Source of the DNA: Pedobacter arcticus A12
Lineage (GTDB): Bacteria > Bacteroidota > Bacteroidia > Sphingobacteriales > Sphingobacteriaceae
Length of the DNA: 64,000 bases
Direction of reading: 5' to 3'
NCBI RefSeq assembly: GCF_000302595.1
Contig: NZ_JH947126.1
Location: 649,223-713,222 of the forward strand
Each line of letters starts with the position of its first letter. The stretch's first letter is position 1. The position numbers were made by a program, and so were the translations under genes. Positions 32,023 to 39,831 of this stretch are shown in pieces. The notes under the pieces were generated by a model. It was not told where the DNA came from, made no database searches, and saw nothing but the letters and a program-made list of their open reading frames with translations.

Positions 32023-34446
32023 TTAAAACGTAAATTGCAAAGTCCCATAAATTGCTCTTCCTTCTGAAGAGATTATACCTGGACCTGGAAATCCAATCGC
32101 TCTTCTTGTAAAGTACTTCTCATCTGTAAAATTATTTATAGACATGGAAAGTTTCCACTTCTTAAACTTATAACTCGTAGTAAAATCAAAAGCATGATAA
32201 GCTGGGATTAATCCCACGCTCCCATCGCTAGATGAAAATGCATTTGTGGCATCAGAAAACTGTGCATCTGTATACGAATACTGGATGGTACCACTCAGCG
32301 CTCCGAATAAATAGTCGATACCGAAACGATCAATCCAAGGTGCTGCATATTCTACTTGCTTACCTTCAAACTGCTTTCTATCGGCCGGGATGTTGATATA
32401 ACTCGCGTTTGTATACGCCACTGATCCATAAATAGAAACTTTATCTTCGGTGTATTTTAAACTGGGGATAAGATGTAACAAATTAATTTCTGCGTAAAGC
32501 TCTGTTCCAAAGCTTCGGGAATCACTAATATTTGTTTTGTACTGATAAATCTCGCCACCGCCATCGCTCTGTAAGAGTGTCCCAACCCTATTTTTGTAGA
32601 GCATATAAAATCCGCTTACATCGAAATTCACAAGGTTACCAAACCGTCCGCGATAGCCTAAGTCTACGTTATACCCTTTTACATCTTTTAGGTTAGGATC
32701 TATCCGAGTGGCAGGCTGTATAATTACGATATCACTAAAATTCACAGGGCTAAAATTCTGTGAAAAATTGGCATACGCGTTTGTTTTGTTTGTTATCTGA
32801 TAGGCCAGGCCCAAACCAAATAACGGGAATGATCGATTTACGCTTTCATTACCGAATACTTGTTGTGTTATCGAGGTGTCTGGCCTTGTATAACCTTTAG
32901 CATTGGTTTCTAAAAATTCGAAACGCACACCGGGAGTTACAGAAAATTTATCCGTTACCTGAAAAATATTCTCGGCAAAGGCGGCTAAATTATATGATGG
33001 AAAACGATAATCTATCTGCAATTCATCACCGTTTCTGGTGGTAAAATCAGCATTAGAACCTGTGTAGTTATAACCTTGGATACGGTGTGTGTTTCCGTGG
33101 TAAAAACGCAGGCCACCAACCAAAGAAGATTTTAAATTTTCAACCAATTGATAATGGTGGATATATCGCGATTCTACAAAATAGTTTCGGTATTCGTCGT
33201 TCATTACAATACGAGGTTGCGAAGCATCATCTGGAAAGATAATTGGATTTAAATTACCCACATTTTTACGTGTTGCAATTAACGCATAGGTTTTAACACT
33301 TAAAAAATTGTTGCTGTCTATGGTATAATCTAAACTCAACGCTGGGATATTCCAGTTTGCAGCAAACCAGTTTCTACTACGCGTAGATTGCCTTGCATCT
33401 TGCTTAAATTGAATATCTGTTAACCCTCCAGGCTGTTTCATCTGATAATCCATAAAAGTATAATCAAAACCTAAAGTCAGTTTTTTAGAGAGTGCGTATT
33501 GAAGCGAAGCGTAACCGTTATGAATATCAAAACCTGTATTTTTTCGCCAACCGTCACTGCGTTTATAATTATAAAAACCGTAATAATTCAGATTTTTCTG
33601 CTGCCCGCCGATGCTATTGAAAGAGTTAAAAAAACCGTAACTACCTGCCGTTTGCTTAGTCACCAGCTCAAAAGGTTTGCTTGTTGAACCTTTTTTCATG
33701 TTAAAGTTTAGCAAACCGCCAAACTGGGTCCCAAACTGTAAGCCTGCTGCCCCTCTAATAATTTCAATGCTTTCCACGCCATCTGTTGGCGGTGTATAAT
33801 AGTTTTCGGGATAACCAATGGGGTCTGCACTAATATCATATCCGTTTTGGCGGGAGTTGAACGCTGTAGTTCTGTTTGGATTTAATCCTCTGGTACCAAT
33901 ACTCAACTGAACCCCTGCATCATCATTTTCGATGATATTTACACCTGCTATTTTGGCGTAAATTTGCCTAGTGCTGTTAATTGCTGTATTGGCTGGTTTT
34001 GAACTGAGTAAAATGAGTTCGTTTTTTTTTCCTTCGTATATGGTAGTACCTTTTGTTTTTGTTTGTGAAGTAACACTAAAAGGATCTTTTACACCTTTGA
34101 CGGTTACACCATCTAACTGGTATATAGATTCTTGCAATAAAAAAGTCCGACTACCTTCATTTGCAACAATATCCCAACTAAACGCTTGCGTTTTATAACC
34201 ATCTGCAGAAATAATTCCTTTATATTTCCCTCTCTCAATACCTAAACTAAAAACGCCGTTGATATCACTGGTGTAGTTTCTATCGCCATTAAGGTATAAT
34301 CTCGCAAAAGGAATGGCTTGCTTACTTATAGAATCTTTGGCAAAGATGCTTACTGGTATTTGTTGTGCAATTGCATCTAACGCTAAAAAAAAGCTAAAAA
34401 GAAGTACAGCAAAACTTTTATAAATCAATCTATTTTTGGAATTCAT
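32023..34446 (-). CDS. TonB-dependent outer-membrane receptor, FecA-like
   Basis: 807 residues: signal peptide (cleavage near AIAQQ), a carboxypeptidase-regulatory-like domain (about residues 30-110), a plug domain (IYAKIAGVNIIENDDAGVQL; GVESIEIIRGAAGLQFG) and a 22-strand barrel ending in the aromatic YGTLQFTF. It imports a metal chelate across the outer membrane using TonB energy. Similarity of the plug (NPNRTTAFNSRQNGYDI) is to ferric-citrate-type receptors. It is the last gene of the imelysin locus, and its start overlaps the HTTM gene by 17 bases, so the two are translationally coupled. Confidence 0.9.
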   Translation of the reverse strand: MNSKNRLIYKSFAVLLFSFFLALDAIAQQIPVSIFAKDSISKQAIPFARLYLNGDRNYTSDINGVFSLGIERGKYKGIISADGYKTQAFSWDIVANEGSRTFLLQESIYQLDGVTVKGVKDPFSVTSQTKTKGTTIYEGKKNELILLSSKPANTAINSTRQIYAKIAGVNIIENDDAGVQLSIGTRGLNPNRTTAFNSRQNGYDISADPIGYPENYYTPPTDGVESIEIIRGAAGLQFGTQFGGLLNFNMKKGSTSKPFELVTKQTAGSYGFFNSFNSIGGQQKNLNYYGFYNYKRSDGWRKNTGFDIHNGYASLQYALSKKLTLGFDYTFMDYQMKQPGGLTDIQFKQDARQSTRSRNWFAANWNIPALSLDYTIDSNNFLSVKTYALIATRKNVGNLNPIIFPDDASQPRIVMNDEYRNYFVESRYIHHYQLVENLKSSLVGGLRFYHGNTHRIQGYNYTGSNADFTTRNGDELQIDYRFPSYNLAAFAENIFQVTDKFSVTPGVRFEFLETNAKGYTRPDTSITQQVFGNESVNRSFPLFGLGLAYQITNKTNAYANFSQNFSPVNFSDIVIIQPATRIDPNLKDVKGYNVDLGYRGRFGNLVNFDVSGFYMLYKNRVGTLLQSDGGGEIYQYKTNISDSRSFGTELYAEINLLHLIPSLKYTEDKVSIYGSVAYTNASYINIPADRKQFEGKQVEYAAPWIDRFGIDYLFGALSGTIQYSYTDAQFSDATNAFSSSDGSVGLIPAYHAFDFTTSYKFKKWKLSMSINNFTDEKYFTRRAIGFPGPGIISSEGRAIYGTLQFTF

Positions 34447-35818
34447 GATCTGTTGATTCTGGCATTATCCAATATTTGGGTGCAAAGCTATCTTTTTGAT
34501 TTGCTAAATCTATATCTGGATCAATAAAAGTTTGACCGGCTTTAGCATTTAATGATGCGTAAGCATCTGCATACACTGCTACAGAATGCTTCAGTTGATC
34601 TTGATACTTTGCTGCCAAAAAGTGCGCATACTGTAAAATCATATCTGGCTGTGTACTCATCATCCGTTCTTGCAAAGGCGTTAGATATTTTTTTGGGTAT
34701 TCAATAAATCGCTCGCCCGTTTCCTTATCCTCCACATAAAAATAGATAACTGCATCTTTTTCCATCAGCATTACATTCCAAGCGTAACGGTAACCCTGTT
34801 CTGTCCACATTACGTTTCCTTTATACATCAAATAACGTAAAGGCATTAAAAATTGCCATAAAAAGTAGACAATAAATAAGCCACTGAATACTTCTTTATG
34901 CCCAGTAAATGTGTAAACCGCTTTTTCTGGATTGTGTTTTGGCTGTAGCCAGAAGAAATATTTTTCTAAAAACCGTCTGTGAAAAGCCGAAGAAAAAAAC
35001 ACCAAAGCTACGCCAATCATCACGATCGGAAAAACACCGATATAAAACAACCAAAAAGTCACTAAATGAAAAAACACAATTAAAGCGTATTCAAATGGTC
35101 GGGTTTTTTTATTGAGCAATAGAAACGGGGCGCTGATATCAAAAAACATTCCTCCCCAACTAAAAACATACGCGGTAAAAGGCATCGACAAAAATTTGCC
35201 TACCCAAGGGATATTTTGGCAAGTTAACAACCATGTTTTTAAAGGTTGTGCCATAATTAACCAATCGTACTTAATTTTAGAAACACCAGCAAAAAAATAA
35301 ACTAAACCTATTTGCAGTCGTAATATAGATAATGTCCAACGAGGAACGGTTGCCGGCTGTTGCCATTTTTTAGCATCTAAACTAAAGCTTACGTTCATGG
35401 GCAAAAAAATCATGGCGAAAGCCAATAGCGTAATTAGATAGTAATGGTTCAAGTAGTTGCTTAAATCCAGCAATTCGGTGTAAGAGAAAAGAAAGAAAAA
35501 TACGACGATTGCAAAACGATAATATTTACCAACAATAATAAATACCAAACTGATGACCATCAATACCCAAGGTAAATACATCCAATTGCCAGGCAATGCT
35601 TGCACCCAATGAAACCCAAAATATTTAAAAAAGAATTTAGGCTGAATGTAAAACAGATCGACCCAACCTTTTGATAAAAAGCGGACCTGACTAAAAAGCA
35701 TGATACAACCAAACAGTATCCTAAAAAATGCCAACGATGCGGCGTCAATAGGTTCGCTCAGTTTATTTTTTAAAGCTGAAAAGTAATAACCCGAGGTTTT
35801 AACCGATGCTTTTTCCAC
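34430..35818 (-). CDS. HTTM / vitamin K-dependent gamma-carboxylase-like membrane protein
   Basis: 462 residues with at least six transmembrane helices up to about residue 330 and a soluble C-terminus. Segments match gamma-glutamyl carboxylase: NHYYLITLLAF (H125, aligned with the essential histidine of GGCX), YFFAGVSKIKYDW (K181, aligned with the catalytic lysine) and FFHLVTFWLFYIGVFP (about residues 249-264). The family oxidizes a quinol to drive carboxylation or epoxidation; bacterial roles are poorly known. The start codon is GTG. It sits nine bases after an imelysin gene, inside a metal-uptake-like locus. Confidence 0.85.
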   Translation of the reverse strand: MEKASVKTSGYYFSALKNKLSEPIDAASLAFFRILFGCIMLFSQVRFLSKGWVDLFYIQPKFFFKYFGFHWVQALPGNWMYLPWVLMVISLVFIIVGKYYRFAIVVFFFLFSYTELLDLSNYLNHYYLITLLAFAMIFLPMNVSFSLDAKKWQQPATVPRWTLSILRLQIGLVYFFAGVSKIKYDWLIMAQPLKTWLLTCQNIPWVGKFLSMPFTAYVFSWGGMFFDISAPFLLLNKKTRPFEYALIVFFHLVTFWLFYIGVFPIVMIGVALVFFSSAFHRRFLEKYFFWLQPKHNPEKAVYTFTGHKEVFSGLFIVYFLWQFLMPLRYLMYKGNVMWTEQGYRYAWNVMLMEKDAVIYFYVEDKETGERFIEYPKKYLTPLQERMMSTQPDMILQYAHFLAAKYQDQLKHSVAVYADAYASLNAKAGQTFIDPDIDLANQKDSFAPKYWIMPESTDHEFQK

Positions 35819-35826
35819 CTTAAATT

Positions 35827-36933
35827 TTAGTCGCCATCTGTATCAGAAAAAGTGATGGTGACCCCTAAATTGTTTGCAACATCTACTTTTAAATAAGCAA
35901 TTAAGGTTTTTAAGGAGTTGAAAACATCTTGTACTTGTTGTTTATTATTATTTACGGCGCTAGCATACGGAGAATTGACGGCATCTATTTTGGCAATCAC
36001 CTCGTCAAACTGAGCACCCACTACCACAGAAAGATTTTTACCATCTTTCTGTGCTTTTACATAGTCCAGTAAGTCATCTATCCCCTGCCCCGAACCGCCA
36101 TTGAAAACGCTTTTCATTACTAAAACATTTGCTCGCATAACTTCCAAAGACTGCTCTGCAAGTGTATATTCAATAATGTCTGGGTGCGATTTATTGTCGT
36201 TCACCTTCACTCCAATACCAATTGGGTTGGCCACTTTCATGTTTTTTATTTCATCTAAATAAAGTGCAATGCCATTTACTGTTTGGCTTAAAGAACTACT
36301 TACATCATTCCCCTTAGCATTGATAAATGAAGTAAAATAACCCTTTGTCCAAGCGTTATTTAGGTTAGTTGCTTGCGCCACTAATTCAGTAGATACACTA
36401 TTTAAAAAAGCCTTTCTAGCAACAGCGTCTGTTGCGGTGGTATATTTAACTAGCACCTCAGCATCTCCATTTTTATCGAATAAAAGATATTCCAATCCTT
36501 TTAAACCTTTAGTATCGGCCCCAACACCCGTAGCACCTATTTGATTGGCAACTGCTGTCTCCATTTTTACGGGCTTTGCAGGCCAAGTATCAATATTGGC
36601 TGCGATTAGCTCAGTTTGCATGGGTCCAAAATTGAAAGGTGCTACTTTAGCCCAGTTTTGTGATAAGATCTTAAAATAATCTTGTGCTGCTTTTAAAGTT
36701 GCAAACGTTGGATTGCCCGTAAAGTTTTCAACGATTACCAAGTTTTCTTTGGTGTTTCCTTGGAATGAAGTTATATCGGAAAGCAAAATCTGATTCGCTA
36801 TATTTTCTAACATTACCGCCTGATCATAAGTACCAAACAGGTTTTCGTTATTATTCTTTGGACTTTTAGAGCAGGCCACCAAAATCAACATCATCCAAAA
36901 TATGGCAACAAACTTACTTTTCACTTTTATCAT
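35827..36933 (-). CDS. Imelysin-family lipoprotein with variant active motif
   Basis: 368 residues starting at the ATG at 36933, with a lipobox LVAC at about residue 21. The imelysin fold (peptidase M75 family) is supported by the DTKGLKGLEYLLFDK segment, the position of the family GxHxxE motif. Here it reads GLKGLE (residues 143-148), with lysine in place of histidine. Imelysins bind metal or heme in the periplasm or at the outer surface. It starts seven bases after the di-heme gene stop codon. Confidence 0.82.
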   Translation of the reverse strand: MIKVKSKFVAIFWMMLILVACSKSPKNNNENLFGTYDQAVMLENIANQILLSDITSFQGNTKENLVIVENFTGNPTFATLKAAQDYFKILSQNWAKVAPFNFGPMQTELIAANIDTWPAKPVKMETAVANQIGATGVGADTKGLKGLEYLLFDKNGDAEVLVKYTTATDAVARKAFLNSVSTELVAQATNLNNAWTKGYFTSFINAKGNDVSSSLSQTVNGIALYLDEIKNMKVANPIGIGVKVNDNKSHPDIIEYTLAEQSLEVMRANVLVMKSVFNGGSGQGIDDLLDYVKAQKDGKNLSVVVGAQFDEVIAKIDAVNSPYASAVNNNKQQVQDVFNSLKTLIAYLKVDVANNLGVTITFSDTDGD

Positions 36934-36940
36934 TCTACTT

Positions 36941-38383
36941 TTATAAATCATTAACAAATTTAATTACTGCATCACGGTCTGTTGCAGAGAGCTTCATAAA
37001 AGCCTTTTTAGAATTATCTGCTTCTCCTCCATGCCATAAAATTGCTTCTTCAATAGACCTGGCTCTACCATCATGCATCAAAAATAAACCTTGGGTTTTA
37101 TTAACTAAATTAGCCAAACCAATTCCCCATAATGGTGGTGTACGCCATTCTGTTCCGGTTGCTAAATAATCCGGACGATTATCTGCCAAATCTATTCCCA
37201 TATCATGTAATAACAAATCGGTATAAGGATGAATTATTTGATTAGACAACAAAGGCAGTTTTGCAAAATTGCTGGTCTTTATCTGAGGGATATGGCATTT
37301 ACCGCAAGAAATATCCAAAAATAGTTGCTTTCCCCTTTTCACGGTTGCATCTGTCCAGTTTCTACGCTGTGGAACGGCTAAAGCTTCGGTATAAAAAACT
37401 GTATGTGTAAAAAAAGGCTCGGGCAATTCCACCTCGCCAGGTGCATTACTTCCGGTTGCCAAACCTCCATACAGATCAAACTGTTTTCCGGAAAGGTTTT
37501 CTTTTGTGAATATTGGCGATGTAATGCCCATATCACCACTTAACGCACCCGCAACTTGCTGGCGCACACTTGGCTCGTTGGCTTTCCAGCCAAAACGACC
37601 TAGAACAGTTTTATTATTTTCATAATCCCAAACATAATTTGCCCTGCCCGAAATCCCATCTTTGTTTTTATCATTTTCATCTACAAAAGAAAGAATGGTG
37701 CTTTCAGAAATCGCTTCTAATAAGCCCATCCCAACAACCTGTGGTGCAATACGTGGCGAAAACAGAAAGTTAATTGGGTGTCCGCCTCTTAAATTCTCAA
37801 ACCTATATTTAGGAACTCGCAGGGTAACGCTGGTTCCATCGGCGTAAGCAATAACTTTATCAGTATAGTCTACAAAAACATTTCCATCTGGCTCAGCATT
37901 TATGGTAGACCTGTTTCTAAACTGTAAACCTAAATCTGGCACTGGTTTAGGACCGCCATGCTCATCATTTCCCGCTATGCTTAAGCGGATTAAAACAGAA
38001 CTTAACTGCTCATCGGAAGAAAAAGGCGTACGCCCCCTACCATCTTCTATATGGCAACTATTACAAGAAATTGCGTTAAATAAAGGTCCAACACCGTCAA
38101 CTGCATTTGTAGATGCGGGCGCTGTAACCCAACTGGTATGAAAAAAGGAACGTCCAACTTTAAAGTTTAAAACATCGGCAGTTAACATTGATGGGATAGG
38201 CTGTGCAAACGAGTTACTATTTTGCATGTTAATAGTTCCGTTTTCTCCGCCCTGTAACGCTTCGTTTTTTTGGATTAAATCGTCTGCGCTACTGTCTTTT
38301 TTGCAGGCAGGCAGATAAATGCTAACTACAATAAAAGCGAAAATGATAAAAACTACTAAACTCTTATTACTGAATGGTTTCAA
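36941..38383 (-). CDS. DUF1111 di-heme oxidoreductase lipoprotein
   Basis: 480 residues. The lipobox is LPAC (residues 24-27). Two CxxCH heme-attachment motifs are present: CNSCH (C107, C110, H111) and CGKCH (C360, C363, H364). The arrangement and motifs such as IEDGRGRTPF and LMHDGRARSIEEAILWHGGEA (near the C-terminus) define the DUF1111 (thiol oxidoreductase-like) family, distantly related to di-heme peroxidases. It probably handles electrons at the envelope, perhaps changing iron redox state. The start codon appears to be TTG at 38383. It lies downstream of an imelysin, separated by a hairpin. Confidence 0.9.
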   Translation of the reverse strand: MKPFSNKSLVVFIIFAFIVVSIYLPACKKDSSADDLIQKNEALQGGENGTINMQNSNSFAQPIPSMLTADVLNFKVGRSFFHTSWVTAPASTNAVDGVGPLFNAISCNSCHIEDGRGRTPFSSDEQLSSVLIRLSIAGNDEHGGPKPVPDLGLQFRNRSTINAEPDGNVFVDYTDKVIAYADGTSVTLRVPKYRFENLRGGHPINFLFSPRIAPQVVGMGLLEAISESTILSFVDENDKNKDGISGRANYVWDYENNKTVLGRFGWKANEPSVRQQVAGALSGDMGITSPIFTKENLSGKQFDLYGGLATGSNAPGEVELPEPFFTHTVFYTEALAVPQRRNWTDATVKRGKQLFLDISCGKCHIPQIKTSNFAKLPLLSNQIIHPYTDLLLHDMGIDLADNRPDYLATGTEWRTPPLWGIGLANLVNKTQGLFLMHDGRARSIEEAILWHGGEADNSKKAFMKLSATDRDAVIKFVNDL

Positions 38384-38463
38384 GCTTTTAAATTTACTTT
38401 ATTATTTTAGGGTGCAAATTTGCGATAAATAGCTGTGTATTGTACACAAATATTTAAAAACAC

Positions 38464-38490
38464 AAAAACAACGGTAAAGTTTTACCGTTG
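38464..38490 (-). terminator. Intrinsic terminator or attenuator between imelysin and di-heme genes
   Basis: A perfect 10-base stem CAACGGTAAA/TTTACCGTTG (38469-38490), followed on the - strand by TTTTTGTGTTTTT. It lies between the first imelysin gene and the di-heme gene of the same strand. It could end most transcripts after the first gene and let the rest be read through. Confidence 0.75.
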
Positions 38491-38514
38491 CTCCCGTTGT
38501 TATATATATTGTAA

Positions 38515-39771
38515 TTAATTCTCATCAGGTATATTTACCTGACTTAATTTTAAATCTTTCGCAATTTGCGAAACCCAATCTGCAACGGCACTTACATCAA
38601 GCACAGCGGTATTTACAATTTGATTTCCAGACGCATTACCCGCTTGTATCAATAAATCAAACGGCTTATTGTCGTTAATAACTTTTAAGCTAGCTTGGGC
38701 TTTGGTAAGTAATGTCCTCATTTTAGCGTCATCGGTTTCATTAAATGATTTTACATAATCACTTATACCCAAACCACTAATTACCGTTCCGTTTGTACGG
38801 GTATATTTTCCGGTGTAAGCATTTACCATTCCTTGCATATCCAGCACTAAATCTCGGTGTGTATTATCGCTAAAACATGAATGTTCTTGCTCCTGAGCAT
38901 TTAAAGTTAATGGCACAAACATTCTTTCGCCAGCTAACTCTCCTTTTGCCAACCTTCCAATACCATTAAACATATTTGCAATTGCCGCAGCATTATTGCT
39001 TTCAAAAGTTTTTCTGTAATTATTGGTATTAGGCTTCCATTCATCAACCAAAGTTTTTAAATTATTTACTAAAAGTTGTGTTACTGCCGTTAAATAAGTG
39101 GCTCTTCTATCTCCGTTTGGCGCAGTCGCTTCTGCAGTTATCAAATAATCTTTATATGATCTTTGACCAGCTTTTTTGTCAGCGGCAGGCGTATTGTCTT
39201 GTCCCCACAATAAGAATTCAATAGCGTGGTAACCCGCAGAAACCGAAACATCATCGCCATTGCCATTTACCGTACCACCGTCTGGCTGATTGTTATTTAC
39301 CAAAAAGTCGATATCGATTGTTGGATACGTTGTTTTCTTGTTGATAATCCCAAAACTTGTATTGAAAGTGGGATAAGCCGAATGACTGTGAGAGTCTCCT
39401 GCTAAGTAATCTATATAACCTTCGTCTAAAGGCCAAGAGTTCAATAAACCATCGCCGTTGTCTTCATCAATTGGACCACCATAAAAACGGGCAAATTCTG
39501 TTTGCATATAAGGTTCGCGAGCGGCTAGCCAAGCGTTTTTCGCATCAGTCAGTTTTTGCTCAGACGGCGCAGCTAAAAACGCCTGTATCTTGGTTTGCAT
39601 ATTAACAGCAGCATCATAAGAATCCTGGTAACCTGCATATAAAATAGCTGAATAATTTTGAACAATTTGAGATTGTTGGTCTGCCGAGAGACCTTTACCT
39701 GCGTTGTCTGATTTTTTACAGGCCCCAAATATTAGAGCAACCGAGAATGCTGCAACTATAGTTTTTTTCAT
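38515..39771 (-). CDS. Imelysin-family lipoprotein with GxHxxE motif
   Basis: 418 residues. Lipobox FGAC (residues 15-18). The imelysin motif GYHAIE (180-185), embedded in SAGYHAIEFLLWGQD, is intact, and the GERMFVPLTLNAQEQEHSCFSDNTH segment also matches family members. Imelysins are surface or periplasmic metal-binding proteins (the EfeO/IrpA type is linked to iron uptake). It is the first gene of the five-gene locus and has the regulated promoter at 39796-39831. Confidence 0.92.
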   Translation of the reverse strand: MKKTIVAAFSVALIFGACKKSDNAGKGLSADQQSQIVQNYSAILYAGYQDSYDAAVNMQTKIQAFLAAPSEQKLTDAKNAWLAAREPYMQTEFARFYGGPIDEDNGDGLLNSWPLDEGYIDYLAGDSHSHSAYPTFNTSFGIINKKTTYPTIDIDFLVNNNQPDGGTVNGNGDDVSVSAGYHAIEFLLWGQDNTPAADKKAGQRSYKDYLITAEATAPNGDRRATYLTAVTQLLVNNLKTLVDEWKPNTNNYRKTFESNNAAAIANMFNGIGRLAKGELAGERMFVPLTLNAQEQEHSCFSDNTHRDLVLDMQGMVNAYTGKYTRTNGTVISGLGISDYVKSFNETDDAKMRTLLTKAQASLKVINDNKPFDLLIQAGNASGNQIVNTAVLDVSAVADWVSQIAKDLKLSQVNIPDEN

Positions 39772-39795
39772 ATTTAAATTTTGTGAGTATGGTCA

Positions 39796-39828
39796 CAAAT
39801 GTAAAATATTATTTAGATTAAATCCAAA
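39796..39828 (-). promoter_or_regulatory. Promoter of the imelysin locus
   Basis: On the - strand TTTG (39825-39828), a 21-base spacer, then TACATTTG (39796-39803): a Bacteroidota primary-sigma promoter. Predicted transcription start about 20 bases before the imelysin ATG (39771). The -33 box lies inside the palindrome at 39809-39831. Confidence 0.75.
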
Positions 39829-39831
39829 TAA
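39809..39831 (-). promoter_or_regulatory. Candidate metal-repressor operator (11-1-11 palindrome)
   Basis: Arms TTATTTAGATT (39809-39819) and AATCCAAATAA (39821-39831) around a central A at 39820; 10 of 11 positions pair. It overlaps the -33 box and the spacer of the promoter, so a bound protein would block transcription. The AT-rich dyad and the gene content point to a Fur-like iron repressor; this is inference. Confidence 0.6.

Follow-up and report, generated by a model that had tools for sequence, protein, structure and literature searches.

The window analysed here, i.e., a 64,000-nucleotide stretch of the Pedobacter arcticus A12 genome (contig NZ_JH947126.1, positions 649,223 to 713,222), carries between its positions 32,023 and 39,831 five minus-strand genes in the order imelysin-1, a di-haem oxidoreductase (DHOR) of the DUF1111 family, imelysin-2, a vitamin K-dependent gamma-carboxylase (VKGC) homologue with an HTTM domain, and a TonB-dependent receptor (TBDR). 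The original prediction, made from the letters alone, had described one unit on one strand with three of four junctions tight, and the analysis confirmed this order and these junctions. The features of the locus are as follows:

39811-39829, minus strand: Fur-box-like palindrome ATTTGGATTTAATCTAAAT, 19 bp, upstream of imelysin-1.
38515-39771, minus strand: imelysin-1, 418 aa, ICMP/LruB-like, with the GxHxxE motif GYHAIE at residue 180.
38462-38497, minus strand: terminator-like hairpin between imelysin-1 and DHOR.
36941-38383, minus strand: DHOR/DUF1111 di-haem oxidoreductase, 480 aa, with two CxxCH motifs (residues 107 and 360).
35827-36933 (from ATG), minus strand: imelysin-2, IPPA/PA4372-like, with the GxxxxE motif GLKGLE and the C-terminus ...TDGD.
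34430-35818, minus strand: VKGC/HTTM protein, HTTM domain plus VKGC lumenal domain.
32023-34446, minus strand: TBDR, 807 aa, PF00593.

Pfam assigned PF09375 to the two imelysins (E 7e-70 and 2.5e-34), PF06537 to the DHOR (E 2.6e-106), PF05090 (HTTM, E 5.6e-69) and PF22777 (VKGC lumenal domain, E 7.1e-53) to the VKGC, and PF00593 (E 1.8e-32) to the receptor, which reached no NCBIfam named-receptor model at its cut-off. Imelysin-1 matched the LruB model with a score below the model's cut-off, and imelysin-1, DHOR and imelysin-2 are each putative lipoproteins judged by their N-termini. A GxHxxE imelysin, a di-haem DUF1111 protein and a GxxxxE imelysin on one strand together make up the arrangement that defines an imelysin-1/DUF1111/imelysin-2 operon. 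The gap between DHOR and imelysin-2 is 7 bp with the ATG start chosen here and turns into a 17-base overlap with the TTG at 36957 at which the mechanical open reading frame (ORF) begins; imelysin-2 and VKGC are 8 bp apart, and VKGC and the receptor gene overlap by 17 bp. The imelysin-1/DHOR junction is 131 bp long and contains the terminator-like hairpin (fold of the intergenic region, z -4.54), so that expression of imelysin-1 may be separate from, or above, that of the other genes. Starts may be misplaced by the mechanical ORF caller, which may also yield shadow ORFs in G+C-rich loci. The five-gene unit in the window is genuine.

The HTTM protein had been called gamma-carboxylase-like. Compared with human GGCX chains, it aligned over residues 52-505 with E 2.7e-41 alone and 2.5e-71 with a profile, and its AlphaFold model (mean predicted local distance difference test score (pLDDT) 90.6) returned 16 matches in the Protein Data Bank (PDB) at E<=0.001, all of them GGCX, with a TM by query length of up to 0.85. 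Residue equivalents were read from the VKGC-GGCX alignment, allowing for a 31-residue offset between the construct and the full-length chain, and residues are named as in PMC12589487. The catalytic base is kept (K181, human K218), as are the active-site residues H125 and N124 (human H160 and N159) and the quinone-pocket phenylalanines F250/F258/F263 (human F286/F294/F299); M350 and Y343 are equivalent to human M402 and Y395, and human C99 and C450 are replaced by Phe. The equivalents of K218, H160, N159, F286 and F299 were invariant in 134 aligned bacterial VKGCs (78 from units, 24 other Bacteroidota, 11 Chloroflexota, 21 Myxococcota-group), and in the human enzyme N159 and H160 touch the substrate Glu side chain (PMC12589487). 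By sequence and predicted fold, the window HTTM protein is a true homologue of VKGC over the GGCX core, which supports this part of the earlier claim at the level of homology.

The survey of HTTM gene neighbourhoods across Bacteroidota that the original prediction had called for revealed a conserved neighbourhood. PF22777 was found in 82 of 395 Bacteroidota genomes, at 96 places, and the neighbours in the 95 loci compared besides the window were classed with hidden Markov models (HMMs) seeded by the genes of the window and by a single DUF4856 gene; "DUF4856-family" here means the genes caught by the HMM built from that one protein, five of which were tested, three matching PF16148 at E<=0.1 and two not. 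Imelysin-2, VKGC and TBDR stood on one strand at 70 of the 96 places of this phylum draw, two places were partial (L124, at a contig edge, and L131, with DUF4856/VKGC/TBDR), and VKGC stood alone at 24. The same arrangement was present in 8 of 8 strong VKGC loci of an order-level draw. The receptor gene lies directly 3' of VKGC in the Bacteroidota units, frequently overlapping it. Among 78 units, a DUF4856-family gene lies directly upstream in 67 and elsewhere in the locus in 4 more, and imelysin-1/DHOR, or DHOR, occurs near 7, being in line only in the window, in L147 and in the contig-cut L109. Similarly, in the best 80 of at least 556 named relatives imelysin-2 was directly upstream of VKGC in 76, TBDR directly downstream in 74 and a DUF4856-family gene present in 75, with all three partners in 71. 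The inclusion of a carboxylase-like gene, which had been singled out as unusual, is therefore the rule, i.e., the commonest VKGC arrangement in the Bacteroidota draw, and it is imelysin-1/DHOR in front that is the rare variant. Across the 395 genomes, VKGC and imelysin (M75) occur together in 72, VKGC only in 10, M75 only in 18 and neither in 295 (82 and 90 genomes, both in 72; Fisher p 3e-50, kinship ignored), and DUF4856 occurs in 57, with VKGC in 52 of these (p 1.5e-37, kinship ignored).

A second clade of VKGCs without imelysins (L110, L115, L119, L127, L128, L133 and similar loci) has kept the catalytic residues. At the stand-alone places ribF is directly upstream in 15 of 24 and serS nearby in 9 of 24 (directly downstream in 7), and 22 of the 24 non-unit Bacteroidota VKGCs have His where the human enzyme has Y395. 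At L121, a VKGC of the imelysin-linked clade stands alone among neighbours whose sizes equal those around a full unit in L102, which looks like a loss of DUF4856, imelysin-2 and the receptor from its surroundings.

VKGC also occurred outside Bacteroidota. Among 350 genomes from the phylum to which a Chloroflexi metagenome-assembled genome (MAG; locus L210) belongs, 10 had it, and so did 68 of 282 genomes (66 above cut-off) from that of a Myxococcales MAG (locus L201). In Chloroflexota, imelysin-2 adjoins VKGC in 10 of 10 loci (2 co-directional, 8 tail-to-tail), and 9 of these loci carry imelysin-1 and DHOR as well; one fragmentary second VKGC match in genome G722 was left out, and a further Anaerolineae locus (L236) starts at VKGC and has no imelysin on the other side. 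TBDR was absent from all 10 Chloroflexota VKGC loci examined, TonB_C was found in neither of the two Chloroflexota genomes searched, and the receptor barrel had no match in the three VKGC-bearing Chloroflexota genomes searched. The Myxococcota-group sample comprised 20 loci from 19 genomes, hand-chosen with longer contigs and strong matches preferred, and imelysin-2 was directly beside VKGC in 13 of the 20, in several gene orders. L276 and L286 of this group have imelysin-2 with a VKGC hidden by the mechanical ORF choice, L289 has imelysin-1 and DHOR, and L271, L283, L288 and L290 showed no tagged imelysin in the locus. The order imelysin-1/DHOR/imelysin-2/VKGC was found in L279, where no gene of the locus was tagged as a receptor, and in L272, with no adjacent receptor and one elsewhere in the locus. 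Given that the pairing persists in Chloroflexota loci without a receptor, the constant partner of VKGC is imelysin-2, not the receptor. In the Chloroflexi MAG, L210:2782-9326 carries imelysin-2/imelysin-1/DHOR/imelysin-2/VKGC between a DUF1501 gene and rpoB, with no receptor.

The VKGC tree contained a split of support 1.0, with all unit VKGCs of the three phyla plus those of L121, L131, L236, L271 and L283 on one side and stand-alone VKGCs only on the opposite side. The window VKGC branches as the sister of a group of 78 further Bacteroidota sequences; support is 0.99 for that group and 0.85 for the clade uniting the two. Immediately outside this clade, where inner supports are low, come three Chloroflexota VKGCs (L210, L257 and L236) and that of Bacteroidota locus L147; the window's order imelysin-1/DHOR/imelysin-2/VKGC recurs in L210, L257 and L147. 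Since three congeneric genomes gave no HTTM match, the window unit was likely, although not provenly, acquired horizontally. The recurring VKGC/imelysin pairing in three phyla suggests where the purpose of the bacterial enzyme may lie.

The iron link of the unit, also part of the original prediction, was upheld by the palindrome upstream of imelysin-1 and by the published iron and Fur response of a related locus in Riemerella (PMC5609570). The palindrome has 3 mismatches to the Bacteroidota-type Fur consensus. The pattern used to search the organism's own genome was drawn from it, its own exact match being by construction, and matches with <=3 mismatches numbered 105/102 versus 132/136 for the reversed control pattern; given a total below the control, only the best few matches are meaningful. 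The one other exact match (L062:8044-9043) sits just upstream of a 123-aa ORF that has no Pfam match and has a ferritin gene after it. Of the one-mismatch sites, one is about 280 bp upstream of feoB and two are in coding sequence. Among the two-mismatch sites examined, a pair precedes another TonB receptor gene, one lies at an ankyrin-repeat gene, with a PepSY/flavodoxin reductase gene two genes further on, and one precedes a cytochrome c gene. Across the units, a Fur-box-like site with <=3 mismatches to the consensus was found upstream of 59 of 75 (of 78, those with <150 bases upstream left out), compared with 0.3% of shuffled upstreams in which two-base blocks were permuted, and in 60 of 75 named loci (of 80, those without a tagged DUF4856 gene left out; organisms partly shared with the unit set). 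In the Chloroflexota places examined there was no Fur-like site at <=5 mismatches, the Bacteroidota consensus being used. In Riemerella, the WT-Fe/WT+Fe ratios of the TBDR, VKGC, imelysin and hypothetical genes are 2.11, 2.64, 3.07 and 2.41 (PMC5609570 Table 4), and those of the fur mutant to wild type, both with iron, are 1.4-1.9 for the same four genes (PMC5609570). In addition, the Leptospira lruB/DHOR/imelysin operon is induced under iron limitation (PMC13066512), and outer-membrane vesicles of Tenacibaculum are rich in a FecA homologue together with associated imelysin-like lipoproteins (PMC10288586). The palindrome in the window is a candidate Fur site, and Fur/iron regulation of the unit is likely.

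A single conserved acceptor for gamma-carboxyglutamate (Gla) in imelysin-2 was considered and rejected, no clear Gla-like motif being seen. E263 of imelysin-2 occurs in 74 of 77 Bacteroidota, 13 of 13 Myxococcota-group and 2 of 9 Chloroflexota sequences, and E156 in 15 of 77 Bacteroidota sequences, the position being mostly Asp. The C-terminus of imelysin-2 ends in Asp-Gly-Asp (window 35830-35838), exactly terminal in 76 of 77, and both Asp residues are present in 77/77 Bacteroidota, 9/9 Chloroflexota, 13/13 Myxococcota-group and 5/5 other sequences. The notion that this tail is a VKGC-specific tag was unsupported, as it also ends the Psychrobacter structure 3pf0 (the organism's VKGC status was not checked). 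It likewise ends 5 of 5 imelysin-2 proteins scored as not beside VKGC, namely the second copy in L210, those of L276 and L286, whose VKGC is hidden by the ORF choice, and those of L222 and L230, which have a VKGC elsewhere in the locus; these five are no true control. Since residues 384-389 of the Psychrobacter imelysin structure are disordered (PMC3143127), the tail may bind a partner.

DUF4856 was considered as a possible imelysin relative; a profile-profile comparison with imelysin gave a probability of 89 (E 2.5e-6, 149 columns, 8% identity). The DUF4856 model (L239:5579-6817) is all-helical with a pLDDT of 90 and has no clear PDB match; Foldseek returned nothing at E<=0.001, and 3n8u (Z 4.3) and 4ecg (Z 4.1) ranked among unrelated helical structures. 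Two similar motifs in the family consensus, EHHWDEAFGY and HxLSEAxGF, may point to an internal duplication. The open PubMed Central literature yielded no paper on DUF4856 and none on imelysin together with HTTM.

We propose, at slightly less than an even chance, that the locus is an iron-regulated acquisition unit that extends the known imelysin-1/DUF1111/imelysin-2 module by a menaquinol-dependent gamma-carboxylase, or a derivative of one, acting on imelysin-2 or its complex. Here the VKGC, working on the periplasmic side of the inner membrane, would consume menaquinol, O2 and CO2 to gamma-carboxylate one or more Glu residues of imelysin-2, or of a protein of the imelysin complex, as it is exported; the lipoprotein so modified would bind or pass on iron with the aid of the di-haem protein (in most relatives, of the DUF4856-family protein), and in Bacteroidota the iron would be handed to the partner TonB receptor. 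Imelysin-2 or its complex is put forward as the client because imelysin-2 is the constant partner. We infer gamma-carboxylation from homology and the kept Lys, His and Asn, and likewise the quinone used, the substrate, the iron chemistry and Fur binding at the window site. A further-reaching form of the proposal, which we hold to be rather unlikely, makes the bacterial VKGC an imelysin-maturation enzyme, with Gla, a malonate-like metal ligand, serving iron capture in imelysin-2 or its complex. If that were true, bacteria would possess a menaquinol-based Gla-protein system that occurs whether or not an outer-membrane receptor is present, and the family that gave rise to the animal clotting/bone enzyme would have handled iron as one of its old roles.

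A serious rival to carboxylation is a changed reaction, in which the VKGC retains quinol epoxidation without protein carboxylation and menaquinol plus O2 serve another job in the iron unit, e.g., another kind of modification, the turnover of a small molecule, or redox assistance to the di-haem protein or to iron release; we regard it as somewhat unlikely. It would account for a kept quinone pocket and catalytic Lys alongside lost substrate-backbone contacts, for an imelysin-2 in which no Glu column is kept across phyla among VKGC-linked sequences (an alignment-dependent result), and for a VKGC not coupled to VKOR, all of which count against the carboxylation of imelysin-2. Specifically, human K217, of the domain coupling/substrate-backbone set, is lost (S180 in the window, Ala in most VKGCs), as are N158 (L123 in the window, Leu across units) and R436 (M386 in the window, mostly Gln in units). 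VKOR had no match in the window's own genome and was present in 10 of 25 genomes with VKGC versus 12 of 25 without, in a hand-picked comparison of 25 plus 25; being no commoner with VKGC than without, VKOR found no support as an obligate partner. Carboxylation is further burdened by the human GGCX region beyond residue 505, unmatched by the window VKGC in the alignment alone and with a profile, and by the Glu-side-chain contact Y395, which is Tyr/Phe in Bacteroidota units and Chloroflexota and Met in 11 of 21 Myxococcota-group sequences. We take K217, N158 and R436 as belonging to substrate handling in the animal enzyme, and VKGC membership as holding at the level of a homologue, not of a proven carboxylase. 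Epoxidation alone is at odds with the lumenal domain, still present in the VKGC, and with the invariance of N159 and H160, the Glu-side-chain contacts (PMC12589487), in all 134 sequences. The iron side of the proposal also meets contrary observations: Riemerella L213 has no Fur-box-like site at <=5 mismatches upstream of its DUF4856 gene, the delta-fur+Fe/WT+Fe ratio of the Riemerella VKGC is 1.39 only, and the effect of iron on it persists in the fur mutant at 2.77 (PMC5609570 Table 4). Moreover, the Leptospira imelysin/DHOR operon is also peroxide-responsive (PMC7567364), so that iron is possibly not the whole story.

That the linkage reflects shared iron regulation only, with an independent VKGC function needed under iron limitation, seems improbable to us. 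It draws on the second VKGC clade, found elsewhere without imelysins and often beside ribF, and on L121, where a VKGC of the imelysin clade stands with no imelysin adjoining, a case that tells against our proposal as well. However, adjacency to imelysin-2 is kept across three phyla in varied gene orders, including convergent ones, and the imelysin-linked VKGCs form a clade. A VKGC that modifies or serves the TBDR, as the original prediction had allowed, is far less probable still: the receptor gene is directly downstream in Bacteroidota units and often overlapping, but 10 of 10 Chloroflexota loci pair VKGC with imelysin-2 without a receptor, the barrel is found in none of three genomes, and L279 shows imelysin-1/DHOR/imelysin-2/VKGC without a tagged receptor. 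The receptor is thus unlikely to be the common VKGC client. Carboxylation of imelysin-2 or its complex is the reading that we retain. With a constant partner in imelysin-2, likely Fur/iron regulation, and variants with and without a receptor, the role of the bacterial VKGC is directly testable.

A Leptospira VKGC reportedly has altered activity (Rishavy 2005), in keeping with the rival of a changed reaction. A Leptospira carboxylase homologue is cited in PMC4555120. In the open PubMed Central literature found, the VKGC-imelysin association is not described beyond a Riemerella table; the iron response of the unit is already visible in print, and the three-phylum association and the kept active site are not described there. 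The biochemical function of imelysins has been called poorly understood (PMC3143127). The window resembles Pseudomonas aeruginosa PA4370-PA4372 and the Leptospira lruB/DHOR/imelysin genes, in which two imelysins flank a DUF1111 di-haem protein under iron regulation, and in Leptospira a TonB receptor gene is also close by, as in the window (PMC3143127, PMC13066512). Unlike these operons, the window adds VKGC and the receptor in tight order, and the word "carboxylase" does not appear in the searched text of PMC3143127 and PMC13066512. Closer in content is Riemerella anatipestifer RAYM_09779-09794, with a TBDR, a "vitamin K-dependent gamma-carboxylase", an imelysin and a hypothetical gene that respond to iron and Fur (PMC5609570), a gene set whose order is the same as at L213 of R. 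anatipestifer; the excerpts of that paper carry no comment on the carboxylase. Where the window has imelysin-1/DHOR, L213 has a DUF4856-family gene and a gene of 253 aa. This second gene (L213:6043-6804, between DUF4856 and imelysin-2) encodes a weakly matched carbohydrate-binding domain and ends in a sorting tail for type IX secretion. The EfeUOB system likewise joins an imelysin-domain protein to a haem enzyme in iron uptake (PMC3143127), whereas the window unit has no EfeU/Ftr1 permease among its genes. With human GGCX the window VKGC shares the transmembrane domain, the first part of the lumenal domain, the catalytic Lys, the active-site His and Asn and the quinone pocket, and differs from it in having no match past residue 505 and in the loss of C99, C450 and K217. 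The constant partner, the likely regulation and the receptor variants of the bacterial units may also help to show how vitamin K-dependent carboxylation arose.

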